64,000 nt of DNA from Pseudomonadota bacterium (GTDB lineage: Bacteria; Pseudomonadota; Gammaproteobacteria; Burkholderiales; Thiobacteraceae): assembly GCA_021812385.1 (NCBI GenBank), contig JAKANO010000008.1:62001-126000 (forward strand). Direction: 5' to 3'. Position numbers and translations under genes: made by a program. The notes under the pieces were generated by a model, which was given only the letters and a program-made list of their open reading frames with translations, was not told the DNA's origin and searched no databases. Of this stretch, positions 21,260-49,460 are shown in pieces (positions within the stretch are counted from its first letter, which is position 1; every line of letters begins with the position of its first letter).

Positions 21260-21462
21260 CAAATCTTTTCCCCGATAACCGAGCAGACCATCATTGTTTT
21301 TGAACCCGCGGGACGCCCCGATGCGCCATGATAAAGGGGAGCGTATTCGCTTGTATATACCGCTTTTCCCGTAAATTAGCAGCATTGGCGCGGGAATACG
21401 TGCGCACCTGTTCCAGGCCGGGTACAATGCGCGCCCGGCTTTCGCATTCGATTTTGACCCCC

Positions 21463-23361
21463 ATGGCTATCCTGACTTTTCGCGATATCGTTCTCGGCTT
21501 CGGCCATCCGCCCTTGCTCGAGGGCATTAATTTTCAAATCGACCGCGGCGAGCGCCTGTGCCTGATCGGGCGCAATGGCGCCGGCAAATCCACGCTGCTG
21601 AAGTTGATCGCGGGCGAGATTCAGCCGGATGGCGGCGAGATCGTGCGCGCCCAGGGCTTGCGCGTGGCGCAGCTGGCGCAAGAAGTGCCCTTGGGTACCA
21701 GTGGCAGCATTTTTCATGTGGTGGCGGAAGGCCTGGGCAAAGCCGGCGAACTGATCGACCGCTATCACCAGCTGGCGCACGACGTGGCCGATGATCACAG
21801 CCTGATGGATGCGCTGGAGGAATGTCAGCATGCGCTGGAGAGCATCGACGGCTGGGCGCTGACGCAGCGCGTGGACACGGTGTTGACCAAGCTTGCGCTG
21901 GATCCGGATGTGGATATTGCGAGCCTGTCCGGCGGCATGAAGCGCCGCGTGATGTTGGCGCGCGCCTTGGTGGCCGAGCCGGATCTGCTGCTGCTGGACG
22001 AGCCCACCAACCATCTCGATATCGCCGCCATTACCTGGATTGAAGAATTCCTGCTGAACTGGAACGGCGCCTTGCTGTTCATCACCCATGACCGGGCTTT
22101 CTTGCAGCGTTTGGCTACGCGCATCATCGAACTCGATCGCGGCAAACTGACGGACTTCCCCGGCGACTACGCGACTTATCTGGCGCGCAAGGAAGCCATG
22201 CTGGTCAACGAGGAGAAACAAAACGCGCTGTTCGACAAGCGCCTGGCGCAAGAAGAAGTGTGGATTCGCCAGGGCATCAAAGCCCGGCGCACGCGCAATG
22301 AAGGCCGCGTGCGCGCGCTGGAAGCGATGCGCAATGAACATGCCGCACGCCGCACCCGCACCGGCTCGGTCAACATGGGCATCCAAAGCGGCGATCGTTC
22401 CGGCAAGATCGTGGTTGAAGCAGAAGGCGTGGGATTCGATTACGACGGCCGCGCCATCGTGCGCGATCTCACCACCACCATTTTGCGCGGCGACAAGATC
22501 GGCATCATCGGCCCCAATGGTTCCGGCAAGACGACGCTGTTGCGTTTGTTGCTGGGCGAACTGGCGCCCACGCGCGGCCAACTGCGGCTCGGCACGAATT
22601 TGCAAATCGCCTACTTCGATCAATACCGCGCCGTGCTCGACGAAGAAGAAACCGTGGTGGATAACGTGGGCGAGGGTTCCGACACCGTCACCATCAACGG
22701 CCAGCCCAAGCATGTGCTGAGCTATCTGCAAGATTTTTTGTTCGCCCCGCAACGCGCGCGCCAGCCGGTGAAAGCGCTCTCCGGTGGCGAGCGCAATCGC
22801 CTGCTGCTGGCCAAGCTGTTCACCAAGCCCTCGAATCTGCTGGTGCTAGACGAACCGACCAACGACCTCGATGCCGATACGCTGGAGCTGCTGGAAGAAC
22901 TGCTCATCGACTACAAAGGCACGGTGCTGCTGGTGAGCCACGACCGCGCATTTTTGAACAACGTGGTGACCAGCACGCTGGTGTTCGAAGGCGATGGCGT
23001 GGTGAACGAATACGTCGGCGGCTACGACGATTGGCTGCGCCAGCGTTTCACGCCCGCGTCTGCCAAGACCAGCACGAAACCCGCCGAATCCAAATCCGCG
23101 CCCACTGCGCCGGCCGAGAAGCCGCCCGCAAAAACCAAGAAGCTTTCATTCAAAGACCAGCGCGAGCTGGAAGCGCTGCCGCAAAAGATTCAAGCGCTCG
23201 AGTCCGAGCGCGAGCAGATCAATGCGCGCATGGGCGATCCGGTTTTTTACCAGCAAGACAAGAGCATCATCAGCACCGCGCAAAATCGTCTGGTCGCGAT
23301 CGACAAGGATTTGGCCGCGGCCTATGCACGTTGGGAAGCCTTGGAATCGCTGCAAGGCTAG
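21463..23361 (+). CDS. uup: ABC-F ATPase Uup
   Basis: A 632-residue soluble protein with two ABC ATPase domains: Walker A GRNGAGKSTLL and GPNGSGKTTLL, signatures LSGGMKRRV and LSGGERNRL, Walker B LLLLDEPTNHLD and LLVLDEPTNDLD. Between them lies the ABC-F linker of charged helices (about 230-310). The C-terminal tail after about 560 is Lys/Ala/Pro-rich and then a coiled coil (DQRELEALPQKIQALESERE), the Uup DNA-binding extension. Uup acts on ribosomes and reduces precise transposon excision. The start at 21463 (MAILTFRDIVLGFG) gives the usual length; the longer upstream frame has no homology-like content. Confidence 0.93.
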   Translation: MAILTFRDIVLGFGHPPLLEGINFQIDRGERLCLIGRNGAGKSTLLKLIAGEIQPDGGEIVRAQGLRVAQLAQEVPLGTSGSIFHVVAEGLGKAGELIDRYHQLAHDVADDHSLMDALEECQHALESIDGWALTQRVDTVLTKLALDPDVDIASLSGGMKRRVMLARALVAEPDLLLLDEPTNHLDIAAITWIEEFLLNWNGALLFITHDRAFLQRLATRIIELDRGKLTDFPGDYATYLARKEAMLVNEEKQNALFDKRLAQEEVWIRQGIKARRTRNEGRVRALEAMRNEHAARRTRTGSVNMGIQSGDRSGKIVVEAEGVGFDYDGRAIVRDLTTTILRGDKIGIIGPNGSGKTTLLRLLLGELAPTRGQLRLGTNLQIAYFDQYRAVLDEEETVVDNVGEGSDTVTINGQPKHVLSYLQDFLFAPQRARQPVKALSGGERNRLLLAKLFTKPSNLLVLDEPTNDLDADTLELLEELLIDYKGTVLLVSHDRAFLNNVVTSTLVFEGDGVVNEYVGGYDDWLRQRFTPASAKTSTKPAESKSAPTAPAEKPPAKTKKLSFKDQRELEALPQKIQALESEREQINARMGDPVFYQQDKSIISTAQNRLVAIDKDLAAAYARWEALESLQG

Positions 23362-23389
23362 CAGCGCAAGGCTAGCAGCGCATTACGCC

Positions 23390-24139
23390 TTATCTACACT
23401 GCTGAGGACGATACCTTTTATCGAGTGTGCCGCCGGTACAGTTCCAACGCAACTCGTTATTTTCGATAATCGGTTCCAGCGTTAAGGTCTTATCTTTTAG
23501 CTGCGCTTGTGTGCCGCCATATTCGATCACGATCACGCCGCCTGTTGTAACCGCGATTGATTGAACGAATGGGGTTTTTATCTCCGCGGAAAGCTCCAAG
23601 TCCGCATTGCTATTCGGCAACTTGCCTTTTTGTACAATGTATTCCGTTGCTTTGGTTTTTGTCTGCTGTGCCAGCGCCAGACTTTCGGCAACGTGTGCAC
23701 GAATGGTGTAGTCGTTATAAGCTGGTATCGCGATGGCCGCCAAGATACCAATGATAGCGATCACAACAAATACGCCGACAATGGCGACGACGATCATGAC
23801 CGCGGAGCTTTCTCCCCCGCTGGATTCTTGGCCGTCATTATATTTATCGTCCCAACTTTGCTGATTGCCGGCTAAAAATACGATGCCTTCGATGAAGGCG
23901 ATAAGCCCCGGTATGAACGTCCAAAAAAATAACAGATAAAAAATTCCCCACCACTGACCCAGATAAAAACGGTGGATCCCCAGATTGCCCAGCAAAATAG
24001 CCAAAATGCCGGCCGTGACTTTGCTCTTGTAGTTCCGCGTTTTTTGTCTAGCGCCACATTGTGGGCAGCTTATCGCGGTTTTGTGAATTTGTTTACCACA
24101 GCCGCGACAGAAAACCATATTCGAATTCGAAGTTGCCAT
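23390..24139 (-). CDS. zinc-ribbon / TM2 / type IV pilin-like fusion protein
   Basis: A 249-residue membrane protein with an unusual domain order. Residues 8-30 form a zinc ribbon (C11, C14, C25, C28). Residues 41-92 are a TM2 domain (AGILAILLGNLGIHRFYLG... with the IPGLIAFIEGI second helix). A linker rich in Ser/Gly/Glu follows. Residues 113-249 resemble a type IV major pilin: IAIIGILAAIAIPAYNDYTI helix, an AESLALAQQTKTKATEYI segment, and a C-terminal Cys pair (C234, C248, RWNCTGGTLDKRYRPQQC). The prepilin peptidase site and Glu5 are missing: the aligned position 5 is Gly122. It is therefore probably not processed or assembled as a pilus. Topology fits: ribbon in cytoplasm, pilin head outside. 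AGGGGGA precedes the ATG. Confidence 0.85.
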   Translation of the reverse strand: MATSNSNMVFCRGCGKQIHKTAISCPQCGARQKTRNYKSKVTAGILAILLGNLGIHRFYLGQWWGIFYLLFFWTFIPGLIAFIEGIVFLAGNQQSWDDKYNDGQESSGGESSAVMIVVAIVGVFVVIAIIGILAAIAIPAYNDYTIRAHVAESLALAQQTKTKATEYIVQKGKLPNSNADLELSAEIKTPFVQSIAVTTGGVIVIEYGGTQAQLKDKTLTLEPIIENNELRWNCTGGTLDKRYRPQQCR

Positions 24140-24212
24140 GTTTTATCCCCCTAATTTTCTTTGAATTATTTGATTGACACGCTTGCCATCATATTAAAAC
24201 ACATGACGGAGT

Positions 24213-26033
24213 CTATAGGGCGCCGAGGACTTCACGTATCACGGCCAAAAACGCCTCGCCATACGCCGCGAGTTTGCGCTCGCCCACGCCGGAAATGTGC
24301 GCGAATTCGCCCAGCGTTTGCGGTCGCACCGCGACCATTTCGGCCAGCGTCGCATCGTGGAATACCACATACGGCGGTACGCTTTGTTTCTCGGCTAATT
24401 GCCGGCGCAGGGTGCGCAAGGCTTCCCATAAATGCTGGTCGCGCTCATCGGTGAAGGGGCTGGCGCTGCCGCGCGCGGATTTGGTTTTCTTGCTGCGCGA
24501 GGGCTTGAGTTCGCGCCGCAACCATAAGCTTTCTTCGCCGCGCAAGATGGGCCGGCAGGCATCGCTTAAACGCAGTGCGCCATGGCCTTCCAAATCTATC
24601 GTAAGCAGGCCGCGCGCGATGAGTTGGCGGTAGATGCCGCGCCATTCCGGCGTGCTGAGATCGCGTCCGATGCCGAAGGTGCTGATGGCGTCATGCCCGA
24701 AGCGCTGGATGCGCTCGTCGTCTTTGCCCAACAACACGTCGATCAAATAATTCACGCCGAAACGTTGCCCGGTGCGGTGCACGCACGATAATGCTTTTTG
24801 CGCCGGCAGGCTGGCGTCCCAGGTTTCGGGCGGCGACAAACAGGTATCGCAATTGCCGCAGGGCTGCTCCAAAGTTTCGCTGAAATAAGCGAGCAAGGCT
24901 TGGCGGCGGCAGGTGGTGAGCTCGCATAGACCGAGCATGGCGTCGAGCTTGTGGCGCTCGACGCGCTTGTGCGCATCGTCCGATTCCGAACTCTCCAGCA
25001 TTTGGCGCAAGGTGATGACGTCTTGCAGGCCGTAAATCATCCAAGCATCGGAAGGCAATCCATCGCGCCCGGCGCGGCCGGTTTCTTGGTAATACGCCTC
25101 TACGCTTTTAGGCAAACTCAAGTGCGCGACGAAGCGCACATTGGGCTTGTCGATGCCCATCCCGAAAGCAATCGTCGCGACCATGATCACGCCTTCTTCG
25201 TTCAGGAAACGCGCTTGATGCTTGGCGCGCACATGGTTGTCCAAGCCTGCATGGTAGGGCAGCGCGCTTAATCCTTGTGCGGCGAGCCAAGCGGCCACTT
25301 CATCCACGCGCTTGCGCGATAGGCAATACACGATGCCGGCGTCGCCGGCATGTTCTTCGCGGATGAAGCGCAACAATTGCTCGCGCGCACCGCCTGGATT
25401 CTGCGCGATGCGATAGCGAATATTCGGCCGGTCAAAACTGCTGATGAAGACGCGCGCCTGTTGCAGTCCCAAGCGCGTGATGATTTCGCGCCGCGTCGGC
25501 TCATCCGCCGTGGCGGTGAGCGCGATGCGCGGCACGCCGGGAAAGCGCGCCTGCAAGATGGAAAGCTGGATATATTCCGGGCGAAAGTCGTGGCCCCATT
25601 GCGATACGCAATGCGCTTCGTCGATGGCGAACAAAGCGATTTCAATGCGCCCCAACAAGTCCAGCATGCGCTCCATCAGCAAGCGCTCGGGCGCGACATA
25701 CAGCAGGTCGAGCTTACCCTGGATTAGTTGCTGCTCGACGTCGCGTGCTTCGCTAAGGCTGAGGGACGAATTCAGAAATGCCGCGCTAACGCCGGCCTGC
25801 TTTAGCGCGACCACTTGATCTTGCATCAGCGCGATCAGCGGGGAAACGACAATGCCGGTACCGGCGCGCGCCATGGCTGGAATTTGGTAGCACAGGGATT
25901 TGCCGCCGCCGGTGGGCATCAGCACCAGCGCGTCTTGGCCGTGCAGCAAGGTGTCAATGACTTCTGCTTGCGGCGCGCGAAACTGTTCGTAGCCGAAGGT
26001 GCTGCGCAGGATTTGGAGGGCTTGGGGATTCAT
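24213..26033 (-). CDS. recQ: ATP-dependent DNA helicase RecQ
   Basis: A 606-residue superfamily 2 helicase for recombination and fork repair. Motif 0/I region [13 protein letters not shown] and [15 protein letters not shown], motif [20 protein letters not shown], motif [13 protein letters not shown]. The RQC zinc-binding Cys are in [12 protein letters not shown] and CGNCDTC. A winged-helix region follows, and the C-terminal HRDC domain is complete ([20 protein letters not shown] ... [17 protein letters not shown]). Length matches E. coli RecQ (about 610). The palindromic repeat region lies between it and topA. Confidence 0.96.
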
Positions 26034-44161: not shown

Positions 44162-46672
<2,511 letters not shown>

Positions 46673-46680
46673 TTACTCTC

Positions 46681-46696
46681 TGTTTCACGTGAAACA
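46681..46696. promoter_or_regulatory. parS: parS centromere site
   Basis: TGTTTCACGTGAAACA, a perfect 16-base palindrome identical to the consensus ParB-binding site, lies between the dnaN stop and gyrB start. ParB encoded at 58268-59125 should bind it and spread around the origin to support chromosome segregation with ParA. Confidence 0.95.
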
Positions 46697-47806
46697 CTAA
46701 ATGCGCATCGGCATAACAACATATTTGAAGCTATGGTTTCCGGGCAAAGTAAAAACTCCGCTGCTATTGGAATCGCCAAACGAACACTCTATTTCCTGGC
46801 TATTCACATTATTCAAAACATCCAACAAATAACTTACATTGAACCCTATATCAATAGCGTCGCCATCGTACTTAATTTCCACTTCCTCTTGCGCTTCCTC
46901 TTGCTCGCTATTGCTTGAAATAACGCTCACGCTATCCTTCGTTAAAACCATGCGTACACCACGGAATTTCTCATTGCTTAAAATCGCTGCGCGTTGCAGG
47001 GCCTGTAGCAAAGTGATTCGATCTACAGTAAACACGTTTTTATACGCGGCGGGAATAACCTTGGTGTAATCAGGAAATTTCCCTTCTACTATTTTTGAAT
47101 TTAAATTCACATTATTAAATCCAAACTTTATTTGGTTCTTTCCGATCTCTAAAACCACTTTATCTTCGCTATCCGTCAAAAGCCGCATCAATTCCATGAC
47201 GGTTTTTCTAGGCACAATTACTTCTGCATTGATCTCTGACTTTTCATCGATTGGGGCTTCGGCATAACTTAAACGATGCCCATCTGTGGCTACAACGCGT
47301 ATCTTTCCTTCGCGCAACACCACCAACATTCCATTCAAGTAATAGCGAATGTCTTGCTGTGCCATTGCAAACTGAACTTGGTTCAATAAATTTCTTAATA
47401 CTTTTTGTTCAATTTCAATTGTTTGCTCATTTCCTTCACCAATGGGGAATTTTGGGAAATCCTCCGCCGGAAGTGTTTGTAAATTGAATCTGCTTTTTCC
47501 AGCCTTTACTAAAATTTTACTATCTACTTGATTTAAAGATATTTTTGTTCCTTCTGCTAAGGCACGCAGAATATCTTGAAGTTTTTTGGCAGAAAGCGTT
47601 ATTGAAAAATCATTGTCAAAATTTACTTCTTCCGAATCAGCCCTTACTTGGATTTCTAGGTCCGTTGCAGTAAAAGAAAGTTTATTGCCTTTTCCTTCGA
47701 GCAAAACGTTTGAAAGGATTGGAAGGGTATGACGTCTTTCTACAATTCCCGTTACAGACTGCAAGGTTTTTAATAAAGCTTCCCGATCTGTTTGAACTAA
47801 TAGCAT
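46697..47806 (-). CDS. dnaN: DNA polymerase III beta clamp
   Basis: 369 residues forming the sliding clamp. Typical start MLLVQTDREALLKTLQSVTG, central VRVVATDGHRLSYAEAPI and C-terminus HSFKYVVMPMRI. AAAGGAAT lies before the ATG. Base composition is clearly more AT-rich than in the flanking 30-kb regions, as with dnaA. The order dnaA-dnaN-gyrB on one strand is the classic origin order without recF. Confidence 0.97.
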   Translation of the reverse strand: MLLVQTDREALLKTLQSVTGIVERRHTLPILSNVLLEGKGNKLSFTATDLEIQVRADSEEVNFDNDFSITLSAKKLQDILRALAEGTKISLNQVDSKILVKAGKSRFNLQTLPAEDFPKFPIGEGNEQTIEIEQKVLRNLLNQVQFAMAQQDIRYYLNGMLVVLREGKIRVVATDGHRLSYAEAPIDEKSEINAEVIVPRKTVMELMRLLTDSEDKVVLEIGKNQIKFGFNNVNLNSKIVEGKFPDYTKVIPAAYKNVFTVDRITLLQALQRAAILSNEKFRGVRMVLTKDSVSVISSNSEQEEAQEEVEIKYDGDAIDIGFNVSYLLDVLNNVNSQEIECSFGDSNSSGVFTLPGNHSFKYVVMPMRI

Positions 47807-48017
47807 TGTTTATTCCTTTTGATAGTAGTTAATAACACTACCAATTTTTTTGTATAACTAATATTAGTTATTAAAATCATCTTATTAAAATAATAAACAG
47901 ATGTGTATAAGATCTGTTTTAATTTCATTAAAGTTATGGATAAAAATATTAAAAAAATAAAAAGCTAATTTATCCACTTCTTTTCAACATCAAATAATTA
48001 ACTTATCAACAGGGTAG
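47807..48017. other. oriC: candidate chromosomal origin (oriC) between dnaA and dnaN
   Basis: A 211-base, very AT-rich spacer with four DnaA-box-like 9-mers: TTATACACA (minus, 47902-47910), TTATCCATA (minus, 47935-47943), TTATCCACT (plus, 47970-47978) and TTATCAACA (plus, 48003-48011). A run of A/T between 47941 and 47965 could be the unwinding element. Genes diverge around the nearby dnaA-rpmH gap, and parS is about 1.1-1.3 kb away. Confidence 0.6.
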
Positions 48018-49373
48018 CTAGCTTCTTAGCGTTTGTACTAAAAAATTAAAATCCTTCGCAATATTTGGATCTAAACCACGCAATTCTTCTATTTTACGAC
48101 AAGCATGTATCACCGTAGTATGATCTCGTCCGCCAAAAGCATCGCCAATGACAGGAAGACTTAATTGCGTTAATTCCTTTGCCAATGCCATGGCAAGCTG
48201 CCGTGGCCGCGCAACGACGCGAGAGCGCTTTTTCGAATACATTTCCGCAACCTTGATTTTGTAATAATCGGCAACGGTCTTTTGAATATTATCAATGGAA
48301 ACCTGGCGCATTTGAACCGCAAGAAGATCTTTTAATGCTTCTTTTGCCAATTCCAGGGTTATTGGATGACCAGTAAATCGGGAGAAAGCCAGCACCCGCT
48401 TTAGCGCACCTTCTAATTCTCTGACATTTGACTGAATTTGTTTCGCAATAAAGAAAGCGATGTTTTCATCCAGCACTAACTTTTCCAAGGCAGCCTTCTT
48501 AATTAAGATAGCTACGCGCATTTCTAACTCGGGGGGCTCGACTGCAACAGTAAGGCCCCATCCGAAACGGGAAACCAAACGATCTTCAATGCCTTGCATT
48601 TCTCGGGGGTAAGTATCGCAGGTGATGATGACTTGCTTATGGCCTTCAGTTAAGGCATTAAAAGCATAGAAAAACTCTTCCTGGGTACGATTTTTACCCG
48701 CAAAAAACTGAATATCATCAATAAGCAGCAAATCCAGCGAATGATAATAGCGTTTAAAATCATTGAAAGATTTGTGCTGATAGGCGCGAACAACGTCAGA
48801 AACATAACGCTCAGCATGGATATAACTGATTTTCGCATTACGATTCTGCTCGTAAACTAAGTTTCCAATCGCTTGAATTAAATGAGTTTTTCCAAGACCA
48901 ACCCCACCATAAACAAATAGAGGGTTATAGGCGGTACCAGGATTTTCGGCGACTTGTAAGGCGGCTGCGCGCGCTAATTGGTTAGCCTTGCCAGGAACAA
49001 AGCTTGCAAAAGTAAAAAGTGGGTTAAGGCCAGATTGATTAGTTTTCGAAGCTGTCGCGACAACTGGGGAAAAGGGTTTAGCCTGATCTTCGTTTGCAAC
49101 TTTGCTTTGGGGCGCGTTGTTTTGAGGAGAAGCTGCATTCTCCTCAAGTTTTAAACTTACCGTCGTTACCTTGCCGAATTGAGATTCAGCCAAAGCTTCA
49201 ATTTTTTCCAAAAACTTCTCTTTAACCCATTGCAGCACGAATCGATTCGGGGCAAGCAACAACACGGAATCGTCCGTTAAGATAGCCTTCAACGGTTTGA
49301 TCCATGTATTATATTGTTGAATTGTCAGATCTTTTTTAAATTGATCAAGACAAAATTGCCAAAAACCATCCAT
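48018..49373 (-). CDS. dnaA: chromosomal replication initiator DnaA
   Basis: 451 residues. Domain I starts [17 protein letters not shown] short Gln/Asn/Ser-rich linker follows. AAA+ domain has [16 protein letters not shown], Walker [22 protein letters not shown] and sensor motifs. Domain IV has the DnaA-box reader [18 protein letters not shown]. The start at 49373 matches the family N-terminus; the frame is open to 49439 but would add a hydrophobic stretch not expected in DnaA. A DnaA box at 49461 upstream suggests autoregulation. Confidence 0.97.
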
Positions 49374-49460
49374 TGAGAAAGACCAAAGTAGGGAAAGGTT
49401 ATTATTGGAAAGAAAGCTGAAAAGGCAAAACAGCACCAATTTTAGTCTTTTTGATAAGAG

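Follow-up and report, generated by a model that had tools for sequence, protein, structure and literature searches.

Pilins are defined by their processing and assembly. Glu5, which has been called critical, is needed for pilus assembly (PMC5059446), and in Neisseria pili the Gly14-Pro22 region melts upon entry of the subunit into the fibre, while positions 14-28 of the pilin are located outside the globular head (PMC5059446). In Pseudomonas, the PilA-PilS pair is an established example of a membrane sensor that reads a membrane pilin, PilS contacting PilA directly via its transmembrane segments (PMC6058289). A leaderless pilin is already on record: XAC3805 of Xanthomonas is described in PMC10333488 (citing Dunger 2014) as a DUF4339 (GYF_2) pilin that has no prepilin leader and is encoded away from pil genes. 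TM2 is a domain without a known function (PMC3581485), and no paper reporting a TM2 domain or DUF2628 combined with a pilin was found in the literature searches made.

The gene described here occupies positions 23390..24139 on the minus strand of the window, i.e. the whole 64,000-nucleotide stretch of DNA that was analysed. Translation, Pfam searches and comparison with relatives established that the gene is complete and specifies a 249 aa protein in which a putative zinc ribbon, a TM2 domain and an uncleavable type IVa pilin follow one another. The reading frame begins at an ATG, contains zero internal stops and is preceded by the purine-rich ribosome-binding site TTAGGGGGATAAAACATG. A preliminary description of this DNA, which named no strand, had placed a CxxC...CxxC ribbon at residues 11-28, a pair of TM2 helices at residues 41-92 and a pilin-like helix with a C-terminal disulfide region at residues 113-249, and had called for an HMM search on both halves; this outline held, with both TM2 (PF05154) and Pilin (PF00114) being matched above their cut-offs. 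The four cysteines of the ribbon (C11, C14, C25 and C28; 24054..24109, minus strand; predicted to be cytoplasmic) are present and are at least 90% conserved in the alignment of relatives, the Pfam zinc-ribbon models giving weak matches below their cut-offs to residues 8-32. The two membrane helices were covered by a PF05154 match at residues 37-86 (23882..24031, minus strand) with E=3.2e-15 and 56.5 bits against a cut-off of 27.9. An acidic Gly/Ser-rich linker, evident from the sequence and predicted to be cytoplasmic, follows at residues 93-112 (23804..23863, minus strand), with a net charge of -4 across residues 92-112. The PF00114 match spans residues 147-249 (E=1.1e-19; 71.8 bits against a cut-off of 22), and a GYF_2 match was absent from the Pfam results for this protein.

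By sequence, the nearest solved structure is Neisseria PilE 5kua, which phmmer aligned to residues 120-235 with E=9e-22. AlphaFold, for which a 43-row family alignment was the input, modelled the fusion with a mean pLDDT of 92.2; in the model, a single unbroken helix (residues 111-171) leads into a sheet of four strands and a C-terminal loop. The good structural matches obtained with Foldseek were all type IVa pilins, while VIA alignment of the predicted fusion to Neisseria PilE gave Z scores of 15.1 for 4v1j and 14.5 for 5vxx. The structure prediction proposed in the preliminary description, which had named absence of a pilin fold as grounds for rejecting its assignment, places the pilin half among the type IVa pilins, and the predicted type IVa fold disposes of that objection. 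The head (residues 149-249; 23393..23695, minus strand), delimited by PF00114, AlphaFold and VIA, carries C234 and C248, which are invariant in 46 of 46 aligned relatives and are predicted to form a periplasmic disulfide. A frameshift or assembly error, the other objection that had been raised in advance, was likewise ruled out, since ribbon-TM2-pilin genes recur in over 50 further genomes, many of which come from cultured isolates. It is nearly certain that the anatomy of the fusion protein is real, conserved and commoner than one odd gene.

The signals required for pilus assembly were found to be missing, as had been claimed beforehand for the prepilin cleavage site and Glu5. The F1-T-L-I-E5 of mature pilin aligns with V118-A-I-V-G122 of the fusion, which leaves neither a processing site nor Glu5, and the prepilin peptidase site (G-1/F+1) is replaced by V117/V118; neither the cleavage motif nor a Glu at position 5 occurs in any of the 46 aligned fusion relatives. 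The earlier proposal that the pilin domain is held by a polytopic anchor is likewise supported. As two defining features of a type IVa pilin, cleavage site and Glu5, are absent, the fusion protein is best termed a tethered pilin paralogue and not a pilin.

The survey for the same fusion that had been called for covered one genome per species and used DNA patterns derived from the TM2 half, which kept the choice of loci independent of their pilin part. It returned 79 loci, more than 50 of which encode ribbon-TM2-pilin at approximately 40-48% identity to the protein of the window; the genomes with the fusion, which number more than 50 and include those of cultured isolates, belong to beta- and gammaproteobacteria. 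Culturable carriers include Cellvibrio mixtus, Hahella and Chitiniphilus. The carriers include members of the Chitinibacteraceae, Oxalobacteraceae, Rhodocyclaceae, Zoogloeaceae and Hahellaceae, in addition to the Cellvibrionaceae, Pseudomonadaceae, Halieaceae, Zooshikellaceae and Alteromonadaceae. Uncleavable pilins were also found behind DUF2628 at four loci (L024, L145 and L146 by Pfam, with L145 just below the cut-off, and L058 by sequence similarity), always without GF...E5, and fused to GYF_2 at L153, also without GF...E5, the latter being a GYF_2-pilin relative of the XAC3805 kind. When the trait columns were removed from the pilin alignment the best tree mixed tethered and canonical pilins, and a single tethered clade was not rejected (p-AU 0.285); for the TM2 half, one clade of fusions and headless forms was not rejected (p 0.476).

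Further modules accompany some of the TM2-pilins. Certain members have an extra N-terminal domain, and an extra C-terminal domain of approximately 130 aa is present at L070, L071, L075, L077, L078, L087, L104, L111, L120 and L124, so the pilin can sit mid-protein; at L087 this domain weakly matches PsbP (E=6e-4). Another possible tethered-pilin architecture is represented by L060, where, at a locus starting on a contig edge, a pilin without a cleavage motif lies behind at least 500 apparently non-pilin residues. A short N-terminal motif resembling (N/S)PYxxPxxxLE precedes ribbon-TM2 or DUF2628 at L066, L067, L113, L117, L120 and L145, and a similar motif is carried on a gene for a small membrane protein next to L087. 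L074 and L093 show two TM2-pilin fusions in tandem, a third copy (L114) being present on a different contig of the L074 genome.

In the window the fusion gene is located in a variable spot (23361..24232) between recQ (24213-26033, minus strand) and a gene for a Uup-type ABC ATPase (21328-23361, plus strand). Comparison of the genus at this point (L183, L184, L186 and L187) revealed a recQ-uup gap of 31 bp in G004, approximately 160 bp in G007, approximately 730 bp with a different ORF in G005, and approximately 1.26 kb with an ATPase-like ORF (GPRQCGKTT) in G001, the gap in the window being approximately 870 bp and containing the fusion gene. None of the other genomes of the genus showed the fusion. 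The variability of this spot, together with a GC content of 0.48 in the fusion gene as compared to 0.61 in both neighbours, indicates that the gene was probably acquired horizontally. Elsewhere in the window, whose GC content is 0.55, the genes at 44165-49376 have a GC content of 0.39-0.46 and possibly constitute an island.

A check for linked pil genes, also advised in the preliminary description, yielded none: pilus genes were absent within approximately 6 kb of the fusion in the relatives and throughout the 64-kb window, a motif scan of the relatives' flanks and of the window identified no prepilins, and no neighbouring gene was common to the relatives beyond the clade level or across genera. 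Of 37 carrier genomes, 32 have a PilB above the family cut-off, among them that of the window, which encodes three other PF00114 pilins as well; the remaining five carriers all have PilQ over its cut-off, so that type IV pilus machinery is present in each carrier examined, on one measure or the other. As compared to 127 of 184 genomes in the class background, the frequency of PilB in carriers represents a weak enrichment (Fisher p=0.04, uncorrected for phylogeny and genome size). The five carriers in which PilB fell short are Alteromonadaceae, three of them with a degenerate helix motif, and were considered as a pilus-free natural experiment; this was dropped since PilQ over its cut-off in all five means that they are not pilus-free.

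The alpha-1 helix of the pilin has been retained in part. Positions 1-13 (residues 118-130; 23750..23788, minus strand) have drifted and hold no G-1, F1 or E5, whereas positions 14-31 (residues 131-148; 23696..23749, minus strand), GILAAIAIPAYNDYTIRA, constitute by entropy the most conserved segment of the protein, with the motif GILAAIAIPAYQDYT.RA across the fusions. Across 55 TM2-pilin fusions the mean entropy was 2.25 bits at positions 1-13 and 0.74-0.75 bits at positions 14-31, the corresponding values for 50 canonical pilins that the same searches had yielded being 0.16 and 0.50 bits. The stretches flanking positions 14-31 reach 2.2 and 2.7 bits, and elsewhere in the fusion values of 1.07 bits for TM2, 2.68 bits for the rest of the helix and 2.61 bits for the head were obtained. 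The constraint on positions 14-31 is not accounted for by folding of the head, since positions 14-28 are not part of the globular head. Moreover, seven headless relatives (L113, L116-L119, L122 and L134) from at least four lineages, including Microbulbifer, Amphritea and two Pseudomonas species, still keep positions 14-31, with a close version of G-I-L-A-A-x-A-x-P-A-Y. That these forms lost the head by frameshift was rejected, as no remnant of a head was found downstream.

The loss of the cleavage site and of the key charge, coupled with the occurrence of relatives in many unrelated lineages, suggests that the fusion may sense or tune pili instead of forming them. As to the roles raised in the preliminary description (decoy, sensor or assembly factor), the conservation of helix positions 14-31 speaks for an interaction with pilins or with the machinery of the pilus, and the predicted cytoplasmic ribbon for a sensing or regulatory role. 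Our tentative reading is that the protein may be a permanently membrane-held pilin mimic, which contacts pilins or the pilus machine via helix 14-31 and signals to the cytoplasm. In its favour are the pilin fold, the loss of the assembly signals, the selective conservation of positions 14-31, also in the headless, DUF2628 and GYF_2 forms, the pilus machinery of the carriers and the PilA-PilS precedent; against it stand the lack of pilus genes nearby and of neighbours shared between genera, the weakness of the PilB enrichment, the degenerate motif of three Alteromonadaceae and the acidic linker. It is possible, albeit doubtful, that the protein is a membrane receptor unconnected with pili, in which the pilin head now serves as a generic periplasmic domain for binding ligands or surfaces, as might be expected from the absence of linkage to pil genes, from the variety of unrelated modules, cytoplasmic or membrane, to which the pilin is joined, sometimes with the (weak) PsbP-like C-terminal domain, and from three Alteromonadaceae (L126, L136 and L138) in which the 14-31 motif is degenerate while the C-terminal cysteines of the head remain and PilQ is present; the head is, however, the fast-evolving part of the protein (2.6 bits) and is missing in several relatives, whereas helix 14-31 persists. 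An unlikely account attributes the conservation of positions 14-31 solely to the structural needs of a membrane helix or of TM2 packing, with no pilin partner. P22, Y24, Y27 and R30 would be expected near the periplasmic membrane surface (a Pro kink and interfacial Tyr/Arg) and helix packing would be favoured by the small size of G14, A17 and A18, yet the exact pilin residues are kept and not just their class, the adjacent 13 membrane residues vary freely, and the same string is kept beside DUF2628 and GYF_2, unrelated partners without TM2 helices. It is highly improbable that a protease other than the prepilin peptidase cuts the fusion and thereby releases a pilin that enters the pilus as one of its minor subunits; although head and helix closely resemble those of fibre-forming pilins, Glu5 is absent in every member examined and the drifted region holds no conserved cut site. 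The chance of a decaying two-gene fusion without function is slighter still: within its own genus the gene is found only in the genome of the window and in a variable spot, but the frame is open at approximately 40-48% identity across many families, with the cysteines and the helix motif invariant.

For a membrane-held pilin mimic, the parity of three membrane segments, taken together with the placing of the ribbon cysteines and of the conserved cysteine pair at opposite ends, leads us to infer a topology in which the zinc ribbon would be cytoplasmic and followed by the two TM2 helices and a short cytoplasmic linker, with the pilin alpha-1 helix serving as a third membrane span that takes the pilin head into the periplasm; support from the positive-inside rule is only partial, as the linker is acidic. 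The fusion is not expected to be extruded into a fibre, since the prepilin peptidase cannot cut it and it has neither a free N-terminus nor Glu5. The retained surface at positions 14-31 may allow it to interact inside the membrane either with mature pilins or with a pilin-reading protein, candidates for the latter being the pilus platform and the pilin-sensing kinase PilS. As a putative partner of these, the fusion could sense or limit the pilin pool and signal to the cytoplasm via the ribbon or the module swapped for it (DUF2628 or GYF_2). Real pilin folds without either assembly signal are widespread, yet half of their membrane helix is nearly invariant. Residues used for assembly only (1-13) are in this way set apart from those preserved by evolution to some other end (14-31); this provides a direct handle on the membrane contacts of the latter segment, and pilus control in many proteobacteria may include a new layer. 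More speculatively, these proteins might form a new class of uncleavable intramembrane pilin mimics whose exchangeable cytoplasmic modules (ribbon-TM2, DUF2628 and GYF_2) allow the cytoplasm to respond, via helix 14-31, to the state of the pilus machine or of the pool of pilins in the membrane.

The architecture, predicted fold, lost assembly signals, selective conservation and module swapping obtained here may be set beside the systems already described. With the type IVa major pilins (PF00114; Neisseria PilE and Pseudomonas PilA) the fusion has in common its fold, positions 14-31 of the alpha-1 helix and the C-terminal cysteine pair; it differs from them in lacking a leader, a cleavage site and Glu5, in being unlinked to pil genes, and in carrying a ribbon and two extra membrane helices ahead of the pilin. 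As compared to Neisseria pilin in particular, the fusion, although expected never to enter a fibre, keeps the Gly14-Pro22 region and has lost Glu5. The stand-alone zinc-ribbon/TM2 proteins ('NINE protein', PF05154), of approximately 100 aa, possess the same ribbon and TM2 half at up to 68% identity but stop after TM2, whereas the fusion continues for 150 residues with a pilin. The XAC3805-type pilin, compared by its published description only, is like the fusion leaderless and away from pil genes, its N-terminal module being GYF_2 and not ribbon-TM2. The DUF2628-pilin fusions resemble the protein of the window in placing an uncleavable pilin behind a polytopic membrane module at the N-terminus, and differ from it in that DUF2628 replaces TM2.
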